Positions 3,987 through 49,067 of a stretch of 64,000 bases of DNA are shown here, piece by piece (position 1 is the stretch's first letter; every line of letters begins with the position of its first letter). The DNA comes from an uncultured Prevotellaceae bacterium (lineage in GTDB: Bacteria; Bacteroidota; Bacteroidia; Bacteroidales; Bacteroidaceae). The notes under the pieces are model-generated. The model did no database searches, was not told where the DNA came from, and saw nothing but the letters and a program-made list of their open reading frames with translations. The translations under genes were made by a program, and so were the position numbers. Location of the stretch: NCBI GenBank assembly GCA_947167935.1, contig CAMVJU010000008.1, forward strand, positions 1 through 64,000. Direction: 5' to 3'.

Positions 3987-4020
3987 TCGCAATAACAAGC
4001 TCCCTTCTAGGATTTCATAA

Positions 4021-4152
4021 GGAGGCTCCTCAGGAAATTTTAGAGGCTCCTGAGCAAAATAAGGGAGCTCCTGAGCAAAATAAGGGAGCTCCTCAGCAAA
4101 ATAAGGGAGCTCCTCAGCAAAATAAGGAGGCTCCTCAGCAAAATTTGGAGGC
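4021..4152. repeat. 21-nt tandem repeat array, ~6 units (unit like gagctcctgagcaaaataagg)
   Basis: Repeats of ggctcctcaggaaatttta/gagctcctgagcaaaataagg; translates as (G/E)AP(E/Q)QNK on + and (L/P)PYFA(E/Q)E on -. Confidence 0.93.
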
Positions 4153-21427: not shown

Positions 21428-21458
21428 GCGGGCCGGACATATTCCCCTGCCTTCATAC

Positions 21459-21567
21459 GGAGGCTCCTGAGCAAAATAAAGAGGCTCCTGAGCATAATAA
21501 AGAGGCTCCTCAGGAAATTTTGGAGGCTCCAGAGGGGAAAAAGGAGGCTCCGCAGCAGAAAAAGTAA
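21459..21567. repeat. Second copy of the 21-nt repeat array (related to 4021-4152)
   Basis: ggaggctcctgagcaaaataaagaggctcctgagcataataaagaggctcctcaggaaattttggaggctcc shares units with the 4021 locus. Confidence 0.92.
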
Positions 21568-30173: not shown

Positions 30174-31433
30174 TCAGAGATGCAGGGTGTGACCCATGCG
30201 CTGCTGCTTCGTCTTGAGGTATTTGATGTTGTACTCGTTGGGCGTGACCTCGATAGGCACGTTCTCCACAATCTCCAGCCCGTAGGCCTCCAATCCGACG
30301 CGCTTTACAGGGTTGTTGGTCATCAGACGCATCTTGTGCACACCCAGATAGCGCAGCATCTGTGCACCACAGCCATAGTCACGCTCGTCGGCCTTGAAGC
30401 CCAGACAAAGGTTGGCGTCGACGGTGTCATAGCCCTCTTCCTGCAACTTGTAGGCGGCCAGCTTGTTCATCAAACCAATACCCCTGCCTTCTTGCTGCAT
30501 ATAGACGATGACGCCCTTGCCCTCTTCCTCTATCTTCTGCATAGCACGATGCAGCTGTTCGCCACAGTCACAGCGCTTCGAGCCGAGGATGTCGCCCGTC
30601 ATACAAGAAGAATGTACGCGCACGAGGATGGGCTCATCCTCCTTCCACGTGCCCTTGATCAGAGCGAAATGCTCCTGTCCGCCCACCTTCTGGCGGAAGG
30701 GGATAATGCGGAAATGCCCGTACTGAGTGGGCATGTCGGCCTCCTCACCCACCTCGATGAGCGACTCCTGCTGTAGGCGGTAGGCGATGAGGTCCTTGAT
30801 GGTGATGATCTTCATGTCATGCTCACGGGCGAAGTCGATGAGCTGCGGCATACGTGCCATCGTGCCATCGTCGTTCATAATCTCCATCAATGCGCCGGCA
30901 GGATAAAGGCCGGCCAGCTTGCAAAGGTCGATGGCAGCCTCGGTGTGGCCTGAGCGGCGCAGCACGCCGTTGTCCTGGGCATAGAGGGGATTGACGTGAC
31001 CTGGTCGGCCGAAGGTCTGCGGCGTTGAGGCGGGATCGGCCAGCGCCCGGATAGTGGCGGCACGGTCGTGGGCTGACACACCCGTGGTGCAACCCTCAAT
31101 CTTGTCGACTGTGACGGTGAAGGGCGTGCCTAAGAGCGACGTGTTATCCTGCACTTGATGGGGCAGGTCCAGCTCGTTGCTGCGGCTGATAGTGATGGGA
31201 GCGCAGAGCAGGCCGCGGGCATACTTCAGCATGAAATTCACCATCTCTGGCGTAATCTTCTCTGCGGCACAGATGAGGTCACCCTCGTTCTCGCGGTCCT
31301 CGTCGTCGACCACGATGACAAACTTACCATTGCGGAAGTCGTCAAGGGCCGCATCTATTGTTGAGAGACCCACCCCCAACCCCTCCCTATGAGGGAGGGG
31401 AGTAGATAGTTCTGTTATTATTTTTTTCTGCAT
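30174..31433 (-). CDS. ribBA: Bifunctional 3,4-dihydroxy-2-butanone-4-phosphate synthase / GTP cyclohydrolase II
   Basis: [73 protein letters not shown]. Confidence 0.97.
31366..31404. repeat. GC-rich palindromic element, in frame near the ribBA N-terminus
   Basis: agacccacccccaacccctccctatgagggaggggagta; encodes [14 protein letters not shown]. Confidence 0.92.
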
Positions 31434-31468
31434 ATCTGGAAATGTCTTATTTGTTAGTCAAGCGTGAT

Positions 31469-33418
31469 TTAACTGTTGTCTTCTGAGAGTAGTTCTATTG
31501 GCTCCCCTCCCTCACAGGGAGGGGTAAGGGGGTGGGTCTCGATAATGGCGTTACTGGTCTTCTCGATGGTCTTCAAATCCTTGTAGAGACGAAGGCGGAA
31601 GCGCAGCATACGGATGTAGAAGAAGATGCCCAAAGGCAGGATGATGCCCGTCAAGGCGTTGAGCCAACGCTGGCGGAAAGGCCGCGTATGGGCGTGGGTG
31701 GCCAAGACGGGATATTGATTCAGCAGGTGCAGCGTCTGTTTTTCACGCGAGTTCGACAGGTCGTCGATGACGGTCTCTAAGCGTTCGCTAATGTCAATAA
31801 TCTGACGGTCGTCGCCTGGACGGAAGAACACCTTGATGGGATTGGGCCAACGCAGCAGGTGGTGTTCCTGGCTGTAGGTGTCAATCTCAGCATTGATGTC
31901 TAACAACAGAAGGCTGTCAGCACGATAGTCAGGATCGTTGATGATGACTTCCTTTGCCACAATGTTACGTTTCATCCGCAAGCCCAGCATACGACGGATG
32001 AGCAGACGGTAGGCATCCATGTTAAACACCGTCGAGTCGTTATTGGCCTTATAGGTAAAGAAGACAGCCAGCGGCGCCAGCACCATGGTCGAGATGCCCT
32101 TTCCGAACCACACTGTCCAGTTATCGTCGCGTGCCATGCGCATGCCGGAGTTCTCGAAAATGTAGTAGACAATGAACACCAGCACTGAGATAATGACAGG
32201 CAAACCCAGACCACCCTTGCGGATGATAGCACCAAGTGGTGCGCCGATAAAAAAGAAGATGATGCATGACAGGGCCAGCGTATACTTGCCAACCAGCTCA
32301 ATCTCGTGCATACGCTCCTGACGGAAATTATACTTGGCCATCTCAGCTTTCATCGCTACGTCACCCAACGTCGTTTGCGCCTGTCGGGCAGCGTTTTTCG
32401 TCACTTCACGCCGCATGTCGCCGTTCAGCGAGCTGAAAATGGAATCCACATTGGGCCGCTTGCCCTGATCCAGCGCCACAGCCATTCGCAATGAGTCATC
32501 GTGTGTAAGTCGGGGCTCCGCCATACAGTATTGCCGTGCCTCCCAATAGAAGCGGTGCCCCACGCTGTCGTTGGCTATACGGATAGAGTCGAGGTCGTGC
32601 AGGATCTGCTTCGAACTCTTTGCCTTCGCGTTACCCGACAGTGTCGAAGCATCGGCCAAGTTGAACTCGCCGTCGAAGTCGAGCAGGATCTGCTTATAGG
32701 CAAAGGTCTCACGGCGATAGGGCACCTCTGCAGAGGTTACCATATCCTGCTGTTTGATATTCTCAAACCACTCACCGCTCCACAGCGTCAGCAGCAGGTG
32801 TTTCTTTTCTGCCGTCGACTGTATCATGCCCGAGTCGGCCAGAATGATGGCCTGGTCTTCATACGAGCCACTCTGTCGGTAGATCATCATACCATAGAGT
32901 TTGCCCGTCGTCAGGTCTTTCTTCTGCACGTAGAGGTTGGTGTTGGGGATGCCGTCGTAGAACACGCCCTCAGGAATCTCCAGCTCAGGACTCTTCTGCT
33001 TCATCGAAATGAGCAGCTGCGCCAGGTTCTTGTTGGCATCAGGGCCTATCTTCTCTTGGAAATAGATGGAAACACCGGTAATGAGGATGACGATGATGAT
33101 GATGCTACGCATCGACTGTAGCAGCGAGATGCCCGCCGCCTTGATAGCTGTCAGCTCTGATGACTCACCCAGATTGCCATAGGTGATGAGCGAGCTCAGC
33201 AGAATGGCCAATGGGAAGGCCTGCGGCACCAGCATCAGCGCCATATACCAGAAGAACTGCGCCAACACGTCCATCGTCAGTCCCTTGCCGATCAGGTCGT
33301 CGATATAACGCCACAAAAACTGCATCATCAGCACAAACTGGCAGATGAAGAAGGTGGCCACGAACAGCAGTCCGAACTGTTTGGCGATGAATATGTCGAG
33401 TCTCTTTATTCCGAGCAT
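31469..33418 (-). CDS. LptF/LptG (YjgP/YjgQ) family permease
   Basis: MLGIKRLDIFIAKQFGLLFVATFFICQFVLMMQFLWRYIDDLIGKG; FFFIGAPLGAIIRKGGLGLPVIISVLVFIVYYIFE. Confidence 0.93.
   Translation of the reverse strand: MLGIKRLDIFIAKQFGLLFVATFFICQFVLMMQFLWRYIDDLIGKGLTMDVLAQFFWYMALMLVPQAFPLAILLSSLITYGNLGESSELTAIKAAGISLLQSMRSIIIIVILITGVSIYFQEKIGPDANKNLAQLLISMKQKSPELEIPEGVFYDGIPNTNLYVQKKDLTTGKLYGMMIYRQSGSYEDQAIILADSGMIQSTAEKKHLLLTLWSGEWFENIKQQDMVTSAEVPYRRETFAYKQILLDFDGEFNLADASTLSGNAKAKSSKQILHDLDSIRIANDSVGHRFYWEARQYCMAEPRLTHDDSLRMAVALDQGKRPNVDSIFSSLNGDMRREVTKNAARQAQTTLGDVAMKAEMAKYNFRQERMHEIELVGKYTLALSCIIFFFIGAPLGAIIRKGGLGLPVIISVLVFIVYYIFENSGMRMARDDNWTVWFGKGISTMVLAPLAVFFTYKANNDSTVFNMDAYRLLIRRMLGLRMKRNIVAKEVIINDPDYRADSLLLLDINAEIDTYSQEHHLLRWPNPIKVFFRPGDDRQIIDISERLETVIDDLSNSREKQTLHLLNQYPVLATHAHTRPFRQRWLNALTGIILPLGIFFYIRMLRFRLRLYKDLKTIEKTSNAIIETHPLTPPCEGGEPIELLSEDNS
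31501..31538. repeat. GC-rich palindromic element, in frame at the LptF/G-like C-terminus
   Basis: gctcccctccctcacagggaggggtaagggggtgggtc; encodes THPLTPPCEGGE. Confidence 0.9.
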
Positions 33419-44049: not shown

Positions 44050-45822
44050 CTATTTCAGGTTCTTGCTCGCTATCATTCCTGCCAAACGGCCATTGACCAC
44101 AATGTCGGCCACACCATTGCCCCCCAGCCGATTGGCACCATGCAGACCACCTGTCACCTCGCCTGCGGCATAGAGGCCAGGGATCGGCGAGCCATCAGCC
44201 CGTAGCACCTGCGTCTCGGCATTCACGCTCAAGCCGCCCATGGTGTGGTGGATGGCAGGTGTGACGCGCACGGCATAGAAAGGTGGTGTCTCCAAAGGTA
44301 CCGTCATCTCCGTGGCACTACGTCCGAAGTCATCGTCGCGTCCCGCCTTCTGCTGGGCATTGTAGCGGCTAATGGTCTCGGAAAGGCTTTCGGCAGGGAT
44401 ACCCACGCGGCTTGCCAGCTCCTCGACGGTGGCTCCCTCGCTGAGCAGATGCTGGTTGGCATAGGTCTCGATGGACGCCAGCGACTGTCGCACAGCTTGG
44501 TCGAAGACGAGGAACACCTCGCCTGCCTCCTGTTTCAGAATGGCTGCCGACACCACATCGCGTGTATCCATCTCGTTGCAGAAACGCTGTCCGCCCAGAT
44601 TCACCAAGATGGCCCCATTGCCCCTCACCGCCTCGGTGATGAGGATATGGTTGGTGGCTTCTGCCGTAGGATGAATCTGGATATTCGCCATTTGGATGGT
44701 TACGCCGCCAATGGCCGTCACCCAGTTGAAGGCATCGCCCGTGGCACCCGGATGGTTCAGTGTGGCAAATCCGCTCAGCGAGGGCTGAAGACTTGTCACC
44801 ATAGCCAAATTGGCCCCAAAGCCTCCTGTGGCAATGATGACAGCCTTTGCGGTGAGCCTGTAACTGCTGCCGTCGGCATTCTGCACCCTTACGCCCGTTA
44901 CGGCATCGCCTGCGGTCAACAGTCCTATGACCTTGTTCGACGTACGTATCTCGATGTTGTCCTTCTCACTGGCCATCTTGAGCATTTTCATCAGATGCGG
45001 GCCGATGGCCGTACCTCCTTTGGGACGATGTGTACGCTTCATGCTGCTTCCGCCCATCAGACCCACGTCGCTCAGGTCGGCTCCAAGTCCTATCAGCCAA
45101 GAGATAGTGATGGGGGCATGCTCCACCAGACTTCTCACTAGCGACGGAATGTTCTGCTGCTTGCCGCCTCGCATGATGTCGTCATAGAACAGTTGCTTGC
45201 TATCCTCGATGCCGAGTGCCCGCTGTACGTCTGTCTCTGCCGCATTGATGCCGCCTGTGGAATAGTTGGTGTTGCCGCCGATGATGCCCTGCTTTTCCAG
45301 CACGACAATCTTCAGGTTTTTATCGGTTTCGGCTGCTGCCACCGCTGCCGATAGCCCTGCTCCACCAGCTCCTACGACAACGATGTCGCAGGTGCCGTCC
45401 CTGTAGGTCTGAGACATTTCCACCTGACTGCCCATTGCTATCAGCAAGGCCATGTTGATGGCATCAATCACGCCCGTTGAAGTCAGTGTGGCACCAGTGA
45501 CACCATCTACCTCGACACTCATCGGTTCCTGCCTGCCTACCGCACTTGCCACAATGCTGTTGATGGCATCTTGAGCGAAGACCGATTCCGACTGGCTGAC
45601 GATGGTGACCTGCTCCACCTGATGGTTCTTCACCACCACCTTGGCAATGATTGTGCCACTGCGCCCCTCGCCGCTACCCGTCCACTCTCCGTCCTGAAGC
45701 AGTTGTTCTGTGGGGGCCGTCGTATTGTCGTCGTCGTTCGAGCATGAAGCCAGCATAACGCCCCATATAATCAGGACGTGCAACGCAAGCAATGGTCTCA
45801 TCAATCTTATCGTTTTTTTCAT
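44050..45822 (-). CDS. Lipoprotein flavocytochrome c/fumarate-reductase-like FAD protein with N-terminal FMN-binding domain
   Basis: LASCSNDDDN lipobox; DGVTGATLTSTGV; CDIVVVGAGGAGLSAAVAAAE; VTPAIHHTMGGLSVNAETQVL...GLYAAGEVTGGLHGANRLGGN. Confidence 0.88.
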   Translation of the reverse strand: MKKTIRLMRPLLALHVLIIWGVMLASCSNDDDNTTAPTEQLLQDGEWTGSGEGRSGTIIAKVVVKNHQVEQVTIVSQSESVFAQDAINSIVASAVGRQEPMSVEVDGVTGATLTSTGVIDAINMALLIAMGSQVEMSQTYRDGTCDIVVVGAGGAGLSAAVAAAETDKNLKIVVLEKQGIIGGNTNYSTGGINAAETDVQRALGIEDSKQLFYDDIMRGGKQQNIPSLVRSLVEHAPITISWLIGLGADLSDVGLMGGSSMKRTHRPKGGTAIGPHLMKMLKMASEKDNIEIRTSNKVIGLLTAGDAVTGVRVQNADGSSYRLTAKAVIIATGGFGANLAMVTSLQPSLSGFATLNHPGATGDAFNWVTAIGGVTIQMANIQIHPTAEATNHILITEAVRGNGAILVNLGGQRFCNEMDTRDVVSAAILKQEAGEVFLVFDQAVRQSLASIETYANQHLLSEGATVEELASRVGIPAESLSETISRYNAQQKAGRDDDFGRSATEMTVPLETPPFYAVRVTPAIHHTMGGLSVNAETQVLRADGSPIPGLYAAGEVTGGLHGANRLGGNGVADIVVNGRLAGMIASKNLK

Positions 45823-45916
45823 ATTTCACTTGTTTTGCTTTCGGATGCAAAGTTACGGTTTTTCTGCGAACTATTGCTAAAAAAGGAACTTTTTTGGCTG
45901 AATGTGGTGAAATACC

Positions 45917-46134
45917 CCCGAAAATGGGGTCTTAACGTTCAAACGTTCAAAGTTCAAAAGTTCAAAACGACACGAATAGGCGCGAATCCTACACAAAACA
46001 CCTATGTTCAGAAAATTAAACAGGCTATTTAGAAAAATCAATAGGCCATTCAGAAAAACAAACAGGCTGTTCAGCTGACATAGAATTGAACTTTTGAACT
46101 TTGAACGTTTGAACGTTAAGGCCCCAATTTCGGG
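45917..46134. repeat. Long inverted-repeat element: 49-bp arms (45917-45965 / 46086-46134), 47/49 identical, 120-nt centre with 21-nt repeats
   Basis: cccgaaaatggggtcttaacgttcaaacgttcaaagttcaaaagttcaa vs reverse complement of right arm cccgaaattggggccttaacgttcaaacgttcaaagttcaaaagttcaa. Confidence 0.95.
46005..46074. repeat. 21-nt tandem repeat, 3 units plus a partial unit, inside the inverted-repeat element
   Basis: tgttcagaaaattaaacaggc|tatttagaaaaatcaataggc|cattcagaaaaacaaacaggc|tgttcag. Confidence 0.85.
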
Positions 46135-46181
46135 CACTTTTCTTGTTTTTTCGTCAGCCTGTTTCAGTCGATGGCTTATCC

Positions 46182-49067
46182 TTACCTGCGGCGGCGATCA
46201 TTATTTCCCCATTTCTTATCGTAGCGGCCCTCGGTGTCGACCTTGCCGCCAAACATGTTCAGGCGGTAGCGCACGTGCAGCATGGCGTAGGAGTTGATGC
46301 TGTTGTAGCGGGTGTCGCTGCGCCCGTTGGCATTGACCCACCGCTCGTAGTTCGACTGCTGACCCAGCAGGTCGTAGAAGTTGAGGGCCACGACGAGCGT
46401 CTTCGACTTGAGGAAAGTCTTCGATATCTGACCGTTCCAGATGAGCTCGTTGGTGTTCGACGAGGGGTCGTTGTAGCCTCGGCGGCTGTTCTCATGCAGG
46501 TTGGTGGAGATCTCGAAGCCGCTGGGCAGTCGGAACATCACCTGTCCGCCATAGCTGAAGCGCCACGTGTCGAGGTCGGCGCTGGGCTGCAGCTCGTTGC
46601 GCGAGTGCTGGTAGTTGACGTTGCCGTCGATGGTCACCTCGAGCCAGTCGTTGCGGAAGCTGGCATTGAGGCGCTGGTTGAGGTTGGTGGTCTTCGTGGT
46701 GTTCTTTGCAGCATCAGCCATGTTCTGCGACACATAGCTCACATAGTGGTTGTAGCGCAGGCGAGTGTCGGAGCCTACGTTCCAGTGGGCTGTCGAGTCG
46801 ATGGCGGTGTTGAACGTGAAGCCTCCGTCGGCATTCCAGTTGCCATTGATGTTCTCAGGACGCGACTCGCTGCCGCCAGTCGCGGCGTTGTAGCGCACGA
46901 GGTTGGAGATGCTGTTGCGGATGTGGCGGTAGTTGGCATAGACCACGATGCTGCGCTTGTACTTCTGGATGTAGTTGTTGTAGTAGACATTCAGCGAGTT
47001 GGTGAACTGCGGCTTCAGACCCGGGTTACCCGACGTGATGTAGAGCGGGTTGGAGTCGTCGCGAATGTCGAGCAGCTGTGTGATGTCAGGCTGACGGGTG
47101 TCGCCGCGATAGTGCAGCCAAATGCTCTCCTGGTCGCTGAACTTGTAGTGGAAGTCAATCGTCGGGGTGAGGTTGACTACGTTGCGGATGGTGTCAACGT
47201 AGACGCCGCGATAGTCCTGAATGAAGTTCGAGTGCTGCGGCTGCACGAGGAAGCCCACGTTGTAGTCGTACTCCTCCTGATAGTGGCGCAGGGTGAGACG
47301 GATGTTGTGGGTGTAGTTCTTATACTCGGAATAGCGGCTGAGGTTCTTGTCGAGGTAGCCGTCAAGCGGATAGAGCGCGCCAAGCCAGGGATCCCACTCG
47401 CGATAGATAGGTGTGATGCCTGTGAAAGGATTCAAATCCATGTGGCTGAAGTCGTAGGTCTGGCGGTCACTCTTGTTCTGATTGTAGCGCATCTCGTAGT
47501 TGAACTGCAGGTGGGCGCCCTTCCATAGCGGCTCGCTGTAGAGGGCAGAGAGCACGTAGCCCTGATTGTCGCTGGGCGTAGTGTTGTAGCGCGAGGTGAA
47601 ATAGGTAGAGTCCTGTCCTGCGGCGTTCTTCACGCGGTGCAGCCACACCTCGTTGTTCGATGCATTGCGGTTGTCGTTGTCGCCCAGCGAGCCCTCAACG
47701 CGCAGGGTGACGTTGCGGCCACGCTGGTTGAGCTTGCGGTAGAACTGCAGCATGGCCCAGGCGTTCTTGCTTTCGCCGTAGCTGAGGCTGGCGCTACGGC
47801 TGTTGTTGACGAGATAGGGTGCCAAGGAGCCCAACGAGGCCAACGGGTCTTCAACGTAGAGGTAGGGGTCGTCGTCGAAGGTGGCGTTGGCCGAGGTAGA
47901 GGTACCGTCGTTGCTGCCGATGCTTCCGTTGGCACGCATGAGGATGTTGGTCAGCGTGTCGGGCTTCCACTCGAAGCGGATGTTGCCGTTCCAGTTGTCG
48001 CTGCGGGAATAGCTGTTAGAGCGGCTGTTCGAGAAGGTGCGCGAGGTCTGCGAGTAGAAATTCTCGCTGGCGTTCTCGTTGGCATTGTCGCCGTCGCGGT
48101 GGTTCCAGCGCACCGAGGCGTCCACCTTCAGCTTCTTTCCGTCGTCGTAGTTGAGGTTGGTGCCCAGCATCTTGCGGGCATTCAGTCCGCGGCGGTTCCA
48201 CCAACCGGCATTCTCCTCCTTGTTGTTCAGGTTGCCCATCAGCACGAAGCGCATCTTGTCGGTAAAGCTCGAACCCATACCACGTGAGGCATAGCGGTGC
48301 TTGGTACCTCCGGCGATGTCGAGGTTCGTCATGTAGCCGCGGTTCATGCCCTTCTTGATGGTAAAGTCAAGCACAGCCTGCTTGTTGCCGTCTTCGATGC
48401 CGGTGATGCGGGCCTGGTCGCTCTGCTGGTCGTAGAACTTCACGTTCTGGATAATCGAGACGGGCAGGTTCTTCAGCGCCGTCTCCACATCGCCCAGCAT
48501 AAACTCCTTGCCGTCGAGCAGAATCTTCTCAATTTTCTTGCCGTTGACGGTGATGTTGCCGTCCTCATCCACCTCGGCGCCAGGCATTCGCTTGATGAGT
48601 TCCTCAATGGGCGAACCCTCAGGCGTGCGGTAGGCATCAGGGTTGTAGACCAGCGTGTCCTTGCGCACGACAATCTGTGCCGCACGGCCTGTCACCACAG
48701 CCTCCTTCAGCGTGATGGCATCAGGCGAGAACATCAGGTCACCCAGATCCTGACTCTGGTTGCGCCGCAGCGTTACCTCGCGCTGCATCGTCTGATAGCC
48801 TACAAAGGAAAACTTCAAGCGGTAGGTGCCATTCGACGGGGCTTGCAGGCTGAAATTACCCTTCTCGTCAGAGATAGTACCACCTACGAAGGTGCTGTCA
48901 GGAGCAGCGAACAACTGTACGGTAACCAGCTGCACGGGCTCCTTGGTGTCTGCGTCCAGCAGCTGGCCGCTGATTGAGAGGGGTCTGTTCACCTCCTGGT
49001 CATCCATCTGCGCCTTGACAGAGAGCACCGAGACAAGGAAGAACAACAAGAAAAGAAGTCTGTTCAT
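46182..49067 (-). CDS. TonB-dependent-receptor-like outer membrane beta-barrel protein with carboxypeptidase-regulatory-like N-terminus
   Basis: SISGQLLDADTKEPVQLVTVQLFAAPDSTFVGGTISDEKGNFSLQAPSNGTYRLKFSFVGYQT; 961 aa, beta-barrel-type C-terminus. Confidence 0.87.
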   Translation of the reverse strand: MNRLLFLLFFLVSVLSVKAQMDDQEVNRPLSISGQLLDADTKEPVQLVTVQLFAAPDSTFVGGTISDEKGNFSLQAPSNGTYRLKFSFVGYQTMQREVTLRRNQSQDLGDLMFSPDAITLKEAVVTGRAAQIVVRKDTLVYNPDAYRTPEGSPIEELIKRMPGAEVDEDGNITVNGKKIEKILLDGKEFMLGDVETALKNLPVSIIQNVKFYDQQSDQARITGIEDGNKQAVLDFTIKKGMNRGYMTNLDIAGGTKHRYASRGMGSSFTDKMRFVLMGNLNNKEENAGWWNRRGLNARKMLGTNLNYDDGKKLKVDASVRWNHRDGDNANENASENFYSQTSRTFSNSRSNSYSRSDNWNGNIRFEWKPDTLTNILMRANGSIGSNDGTSTSANATFDDDPYLYVEDPLASLGSLAPYLVNNSRSASLSYGESKNAWAMLQFYRKLNQRGRNVTLRVEGSLGDNDNRNASNNEVWLHRVKNAAGQDSTYFTSRYNTTPSDNQGYVLSALYSEPLWKGAHLQFNYEMRYNQNKSDRQTYDFSHMDLNPFTGITPIYREWDPWLGALYPLDGYLDKNLSRYSEYKNYTHNIRLTLRHYQEEYDYNVGFLVQPQHSNFIQDYRGVYVDTIRNVVNLTPTIDFHYKFSDQESIWLHYRGDTRQPDITQLLDIRDDSNPLYITSGNPGLKPQFTNSLNVYYNNYIQKYKRSIVVYANYRHIRNSISNLVRYNAATGGSESRPENINGNWNADGGFTFNTAIDSTAHWNVGSDTRLRYNHYVSYVSQNMADAAKNTTKTTNLNQRLNASFRNDWLEVTIDGNVNYQHSRNELQPSADLDTWRFSYGGQVMFRLPSGFEISTNLHENSRRGYNDPSSNTNELIWNGQISKTFLKSKTLVVALNFYDLLGQQSNYERWVNANGRSDTRYNSINSYAMLHVRYRLNMFGGKVDTEGRYDKKWGNNDRRRR

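Follow-up and report, generated by a model that had tools for sequence, protein, structure and literature searches.

A locus-private long inverted repeat with stepped arms in a Prevotella-like genome and its possible formation in place by replication template switching

The REP/BIME sequences and the Rickettsia palindromic elements are palindromic, intergenic and dispersed families of conserved sequence, the latter also entering open reading frames in frame. The inverted repeat described here differs from both in that its arms are private to a single locus. It resembles the quasipalindromes and other template-switch hairpins, such as the QP hotspots of Escherichia coli (PMC7202029), the RNA stems created or mended by template switching (PMC8794818) and the homogenised arms of inverted repeats in yeast (PMC8604942). 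Matching of the arms and inversion of the spacer have been reported as footprints of such template switches (PMC8794818 and PMC8604942). Near-perfect local inverted arms, locus-private sequence, concerted arm matching and an inverted spacer in a sister pair are common to these hairpins and our case; however, the arms found here are longer, consist of 7-9-nt steps and stand 120 nt apart, and dozens of such structures are expected per genome. Among the Bacteroidales, the BrickBuilt MITE of Porphyromonas gingivalis is also intergenic and combines inverted ends with short tandem units (23 nt in BrickBuilt, 21 nt here), but it is a single sequence present 19 times and has IS5-type ends of 12 nt (PMC4596501), whereas the present element has one copy, 49-nt arms and no recognised IS-like ends. 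The TAACTGA heptamer repeats of Beggiatoaceae, Cyanobacteria and some Bacteroidetes are intergenic direct repeats of 7 nt as well. They are made of one fixed heptamer, which in the Beggiatoaceae strain mostly precedes start codons at a short distance (PMC4679880), while many different 7-9-nt units exist in our case, often as local inverted pairs and also within genes. A description of stepped private inverted repeats in Prevotella was not found in the openly licensed literature searched, which is no proof of novelty.

The element comprises 218 bp (45917-46134) of the window, i.e. the whole analysed stretch of 64,000 nucleotides, which forms part of contig C8 from a Prevotella-like metagenome bin (89 contigs of 2.1 Mb in total, 58% complete). 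Its left arm (45917-45965, plus strand) and the inverted copy forming the right arm (46086-46134, minus strand) have 49 nt each, match at 47 of 49 positions and are separated by 120 nt; our re-measurement thereby reproduced the values of an earlier sequence-only reading of this DNA. The left arm starts with the outer GC hairpin CCCGAAAATGGGG, followed by the link TCTTAACG and the steps of 7/8 nt. The small GC-rich outer hairpins occupy 45917-45930 and 46120-46134, the latter being followed by T-rich CACTTTTCTTGTTTTTT on the plus strand, and the arrays of 8-nt steps extend over 45934-45966 (4.2 copies) and 46086-46117 (4.1 copies; both given for the plus strand). Both mismatches fall into the outer GC-hairpin part, and the inner 35 nt are identical, down to the irregular order of the steps (AACGTTC-AAACGTTC-AAAGTTC-AAAAGTTC). 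The arms are therefore copies of each other rather than two arrays that arose independently. The core contains 3.2 copies of the 21-nt unit TTCAGAAAAATAAACAGGCTA with 76% matches between copies (46007-46074, plus strand); the about three units noted before are thus present, in a slightly wider extent than the 46005-46067 given at that time. Our hexamer-trained gene caller placed no gene inside the element, in line with the former statement that no ORF of note is found there. In the '<<' context of this caller the neighbours are 95 and 48 nt away, namely a flavoenzyme (FMN_bind + FAD_binding_2; 44050-45822, minus strand) on the left and an outer-membrane protein (CarboxypepD_reg + OMP beta-barrel; 46182-49067, minus strand) on the right, with 48 nt between the stop codon of the outer-membrane gene and the element. 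Named relatives of the latter gene come from rumen and gut Prevotella.

A MITE-like nature had been suggested from the sequence, and the terminal inverted repeats with internal tandem units do recall BrickBuilt of Porphyromonas (PMC4596501). However, neither BLAST nor a search allowing up to 3 mismatches found arms other than the element's own in its genome, which makes it a single copy in 2.1 Mb with about 40% of the genome missing. Among 60 relatives none has the arms beyond short heptad matches, and they are absent from the phages, plasmids and viral contigs searched. The flanks ...GTGAAATACC and CACTTTTCTT contain no common direct repeat, and the outer ends have no matching bases; the proposed check by BLASTN and target-site duplication yielded neither further copies nor a duplication. 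The two outer ends differ in their distribution. That of the right arm, TAAGGCCCCAATTTCGGG, is identical at 18 of 18 positions to C6:35094-35111, and five further sites of its 13-mer CCCCAATTTCGGG exist in the 812 kb sampled, often as a terminator-like GCCCCCAATTTCGGGGGC hairpin with T-run; several of these sites have their own short-step array and TAAG link before them. The outer 12-mer of the left arm (CCCATTTTCGGG on the minus strand) is private, with no other site in the sampled genome. In the comparison with IS ends, which refers to a genome that is 58% complete, the only other matches of the outer end were terminator-like hairpins. Core-like 21-nt units are also present at C6:3752, C1:154108, C2:65090 and C61:4585.

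The element is by far no isolated case with regard to its build. With a score of 43 it is the top of all inverted repeats within 500 nt in 812,282 sampled bases of its own genome, and four first-order Markov resamplings of these bases gave a maximum score of 16 as random background. The scan of the 812 kb detected 39 inverted repeats with a score of at least 18, of which 28 were left after dropping the dispersed CCCTCCC family and 19 have a spacer of at least 40 nt; the thresholds for repeats and arrays were our own choice, and the gene calls came from a home-made hexamer caller. Many arms of this class are built of 7-9-nt steps, for example at C5:46148 (42/42 arms, TTTCCCAC steps), C3:71603 (39/39 arms, GTGACGTT steps) and C1:154290 (GTTTATTC steps), and each time the arm pair is private to its locus. 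The element is a member of a class that is set by architecture and not by sequence. The sequence-only reading had named unique occurrence as an argument against mobility, which holds for this particular sequence, but the same build recurs genome-wide with other sequences. The spacer of the window element carries the 21-nt units, where several other stepped repeats enclose an A+T-only palindrome; long palindromes of this kind, giving a nested hairpin, were seen at C1:154290, C5:46148, C3:118513, C1:459 and C7:49829.

The same build was found in other Prevotella assemblies (L170, L115, L174, L125, L144, G083, G275 and G321), it is rarer in the lower-GC genus members G016 and G289, and in the small samples taken from four further families of Bacteroidales (0.31 Mb in total) only one array of period 7-8 was found, without inverted partner. 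An assembly artefact of the metagenome bin could be suspected from its 58% completeness and 89 contigs, but genes on both flanks are intact and many independent assemblies show the same build, including the two-contig G290; hence, this explanation is hardly credible. Loss of the hairpin nuclease SbcCD was considered as permissive cause and rejected, because genomes without it do not have a higher density of inverted repeats: strong relatives of SbcC/SbcD were limited to 3 of the 18 genus genomes tested (G083, G248 and G275), and the SbcCD-containing G083 and G275 have 105 and 80 inverted repeats per Mb versus 10-40 per Mb in four genomes without it.

Comparisons with sister species, with one genome per species, which limits dating, indicate how such arms appear. 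In L187 a GTPase gene, which we take to be RsgA-like from its motifs, has the left arm ahead of its start codon and the right arm 269 nt further on, in frame within the gene; the sisters L166 and L167 have kept the spacer and lack both arms. At L115 one arm is situated between two genes and the other in frame within a kinase-like ORF, while its sister L118, which has kept the spacer, shows a different repeat at this site of the gene. The inverted repeat of L168 is missing from the 92%-identical L169. Where sisters can be compared, the arms were thus added around older resident sequence. The hairpin stems of L153/L156 and of L161/L163 differ by paired changes, and the hairpin loops of L143 and of L140/L142 are nearly reverse complements of each other, although this single case with a 7-nt loop could be due to chance. 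In most relatives, the two flanks of the repeat at C5:46148 were located apart, on different contigs or at different sites. Arms that flank resident sequence do not fit an insertion element arriving in one piece, and together with the single copy and the ends lacking a duplication this brings the MITE reading close to refuted.

The element might alternatively be an invertible segment turned by a site-specific recombinase. Invertible promoters are established for Bacteroidales (PMC8748976), and inverted repeats of 25-50 nt spaced by 80-200 nt are common in this genome, but the arms differ between loci, so that a common recombination site does not exist, and flipping at L187 and L115 would disrupt an ORF. 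Moreover, the spacer between the arms contains neither a TAnnTTTG box nor a sigma-70-like site, which leaves an inverton very unlikely. The sole TAnnTTTG box of the 3.2-kb locus is TAACTTTG (45848-45855, minus strand), the Bacteroidetes -7-like box of the flavoenzyme gene. It lies outside the element, between it and the flavoenzyme start, hence the element is not part of the flavoenzyme leader and the attenuation structure considered earlier is unlikely. An intrinsic terminator was not found in 45700-46300, where the outer hairpin of the right arm is followed by only interrupted T-rich sequence, and the minus-strand exit from the element, GUAUUUCACC, is not U-rich. Because a standard terminator or a Bacteroidetes promoter box is missing from the element, the terminator, attenuator and invertible-promoter readings are all weak.

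The origin of the arms can be addressed by the partners of short-step arrays, which were counted for periods of 6-10 with partners sought within 400 nt and the flank of another array serving as swap control. Intergenic arrays of the own genome (n=99) have an inverted partner in 25 cases, a direct one in 1 and none in the swap control (0/99); for those of relatives (n=149) the numbers are 29, 6 and 0, respectively. Among arrays in predicted CDS, 10/99 have an inverted and 3/99 a direct partner. Both arms of one inverted repeat may count as two arrays, hence independent loci are fewer than these numbers. The excess of inverted partners suggests copying with the opposite strand as template, since plain slippage would yield direct copies, and its presence in CDS favours a copying process over selection in untranslated regions.

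Collectively, we lean towards the view that the element is a locus-private, non-mobile inverted repeat that formed in place, most likely by template switching in DNA replication. Slippage would make and stretch the arrays with 7-8-nt period; then the right arm, an array beside a GC hairpin, would have been copied as reverse complement across the intergenic core to give the left arm, and later template switches would keep the arms matched. The right arm probably served as donor, given that its outer end recurs at five further loci while the left version is private. Template-switch tracts are mostly short and local, so that about 49 nt copied across 120 nt would be at the long end. For the window locus such an event is inferred from the other loci. 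It is rather improbable that, beyond slippage, an active process writes lineage-specific arrays of 7-9-nt steps into genes and intergenic DNA, with inverted partners within approximately 300 nt.

Alternatively, selection on RNA structure could maintain the near-perfect match of the arms. The outer-membrane mRNA would then read through the element and its long stem would protect the 3' end or end transcription. Predicted RNA folds of 281 nt are very stable on the plus (-102.6 kcal/mol, z -10.1 against shuffles) and on the minus strand (-108.6 kcal/mol, z -9.6), hence on structural grounds a very long hairpin RNA, as had been suggested before, is possible from either strand. Rfam gave no family above the gathering score; plant miRNA, snoRNA and sRNA models far below the cut-off were the only hits, which are chance matches due to the bare hairpin. 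As 3' tail of the outer-membrane gene, past whose stop codon the element begins by 48 nt, the transcript would form an approximately 45-bp stem that could stop 3' exonucleases or slow down the polymerase. Some short-loop hairpins with stepped arms are indeed located 10-25 nt past stop codons, for example the one of L110 between convergent genes. However, besides the missing terminator-like site and U-rich exit mentioned above, no such structure follows the same outer-membrane gene in the relatives examined, and arrays within CDS have inverted partners, too. Long-spacer repeats are found within 20 nt of gene 3' ends in 3 of 16 cases versus 1.8 expected, and a second count near gene 3' ends gave 5/16 versus 3.7; neither excess is significant, hence selection for gene 3' ends across the class was rejected. 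The location of arrays just upstream of terminators (5 versus 1.4 expected) was too weak to build on. A selected RNA hairpin is accordingly given a minor though appreciable chance, and any role at the RNA 3' end would probably be secondary to the formation of the element by template switching.

The window locus itself is arranged differently in the relatives. The outer-membrane gene is followed, and the flavoenzyme preceded, by other neighbours in the relatives that have these genes, hence the junction is lineage-specific among the genomes examined; none of these is syntenic or displays an intermediate state. Unrelated stepped arrays occupy these places in some relatives, namely (AACTCCTTT)n in G121/L170, a pair of inverted nonamers in L125 and, upstream of the flavoenzyme of G083, a stepped pair. 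Hence, such positions may be permissive for stepped arrays while the sequence is not conserved.

With regard to how long perfect hairpins arise without transposons, about 20 private long-spacer hairpins per 0.8 Mb, missing from sisters where compared, offer a natural series of the birth, mending and loss of inverted repeats. In such genomes a perfect inverted repeat should not by itself be taken to indicate a mobile element or a regulatory RNA. If an active array-writing process were true, new hairpins and new in-frame peptides would arise continually in this Prevotella group.

Some further repeats were noted on the way. A dispersed palindromic family of the type CCCACCCCC...CCCTCCC is present in the window at 31379-31525 and at C7:1541, C2:47393, C1:67544 and other places, with one copy in frame within a kinase-like ORF of L118. 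Hairpins with stepped outer arms and a common inner AATTTGCTACCGC recur across species (L146, L111, G275 and G321), the one of L111 being 10 and 21 nt away from convergent gene ends. The heptad (GAGGTGA/TCACCTC)n has 168 matches in the own genome, 0 in most of 200 sampled family members and 72 in G461, which belongs to another genus. It is found in frame as (T)SHLSPLTSHL in conserved-looking proteins, even in the G3 region of an RsgA-like GTPase; examples from the own genome are C3:86847, C2:21636, C1:49713 and C3:43188. At C2:25557 and C2:67899, arrays of the TTTATCA heptad encode the hydrophobic portion (FIICHLSF, FIIFHLSF) of predicted signal peptides. Finally, the 812 kb contain 33 intergenic tandem arrays with units of 21-22 nt, including 4017-4152, 21455-21564 and 46007-46074 of the window. 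Many of them are palindromic, with stems that vary by locus (GTTTC/GAAAC, TTCCCA/TGGGAA, GGAG/CTCC or AAACA/TGTTT), and stems of at least 5 were found in 11 of the 33 arrays versus 2.5 expected.
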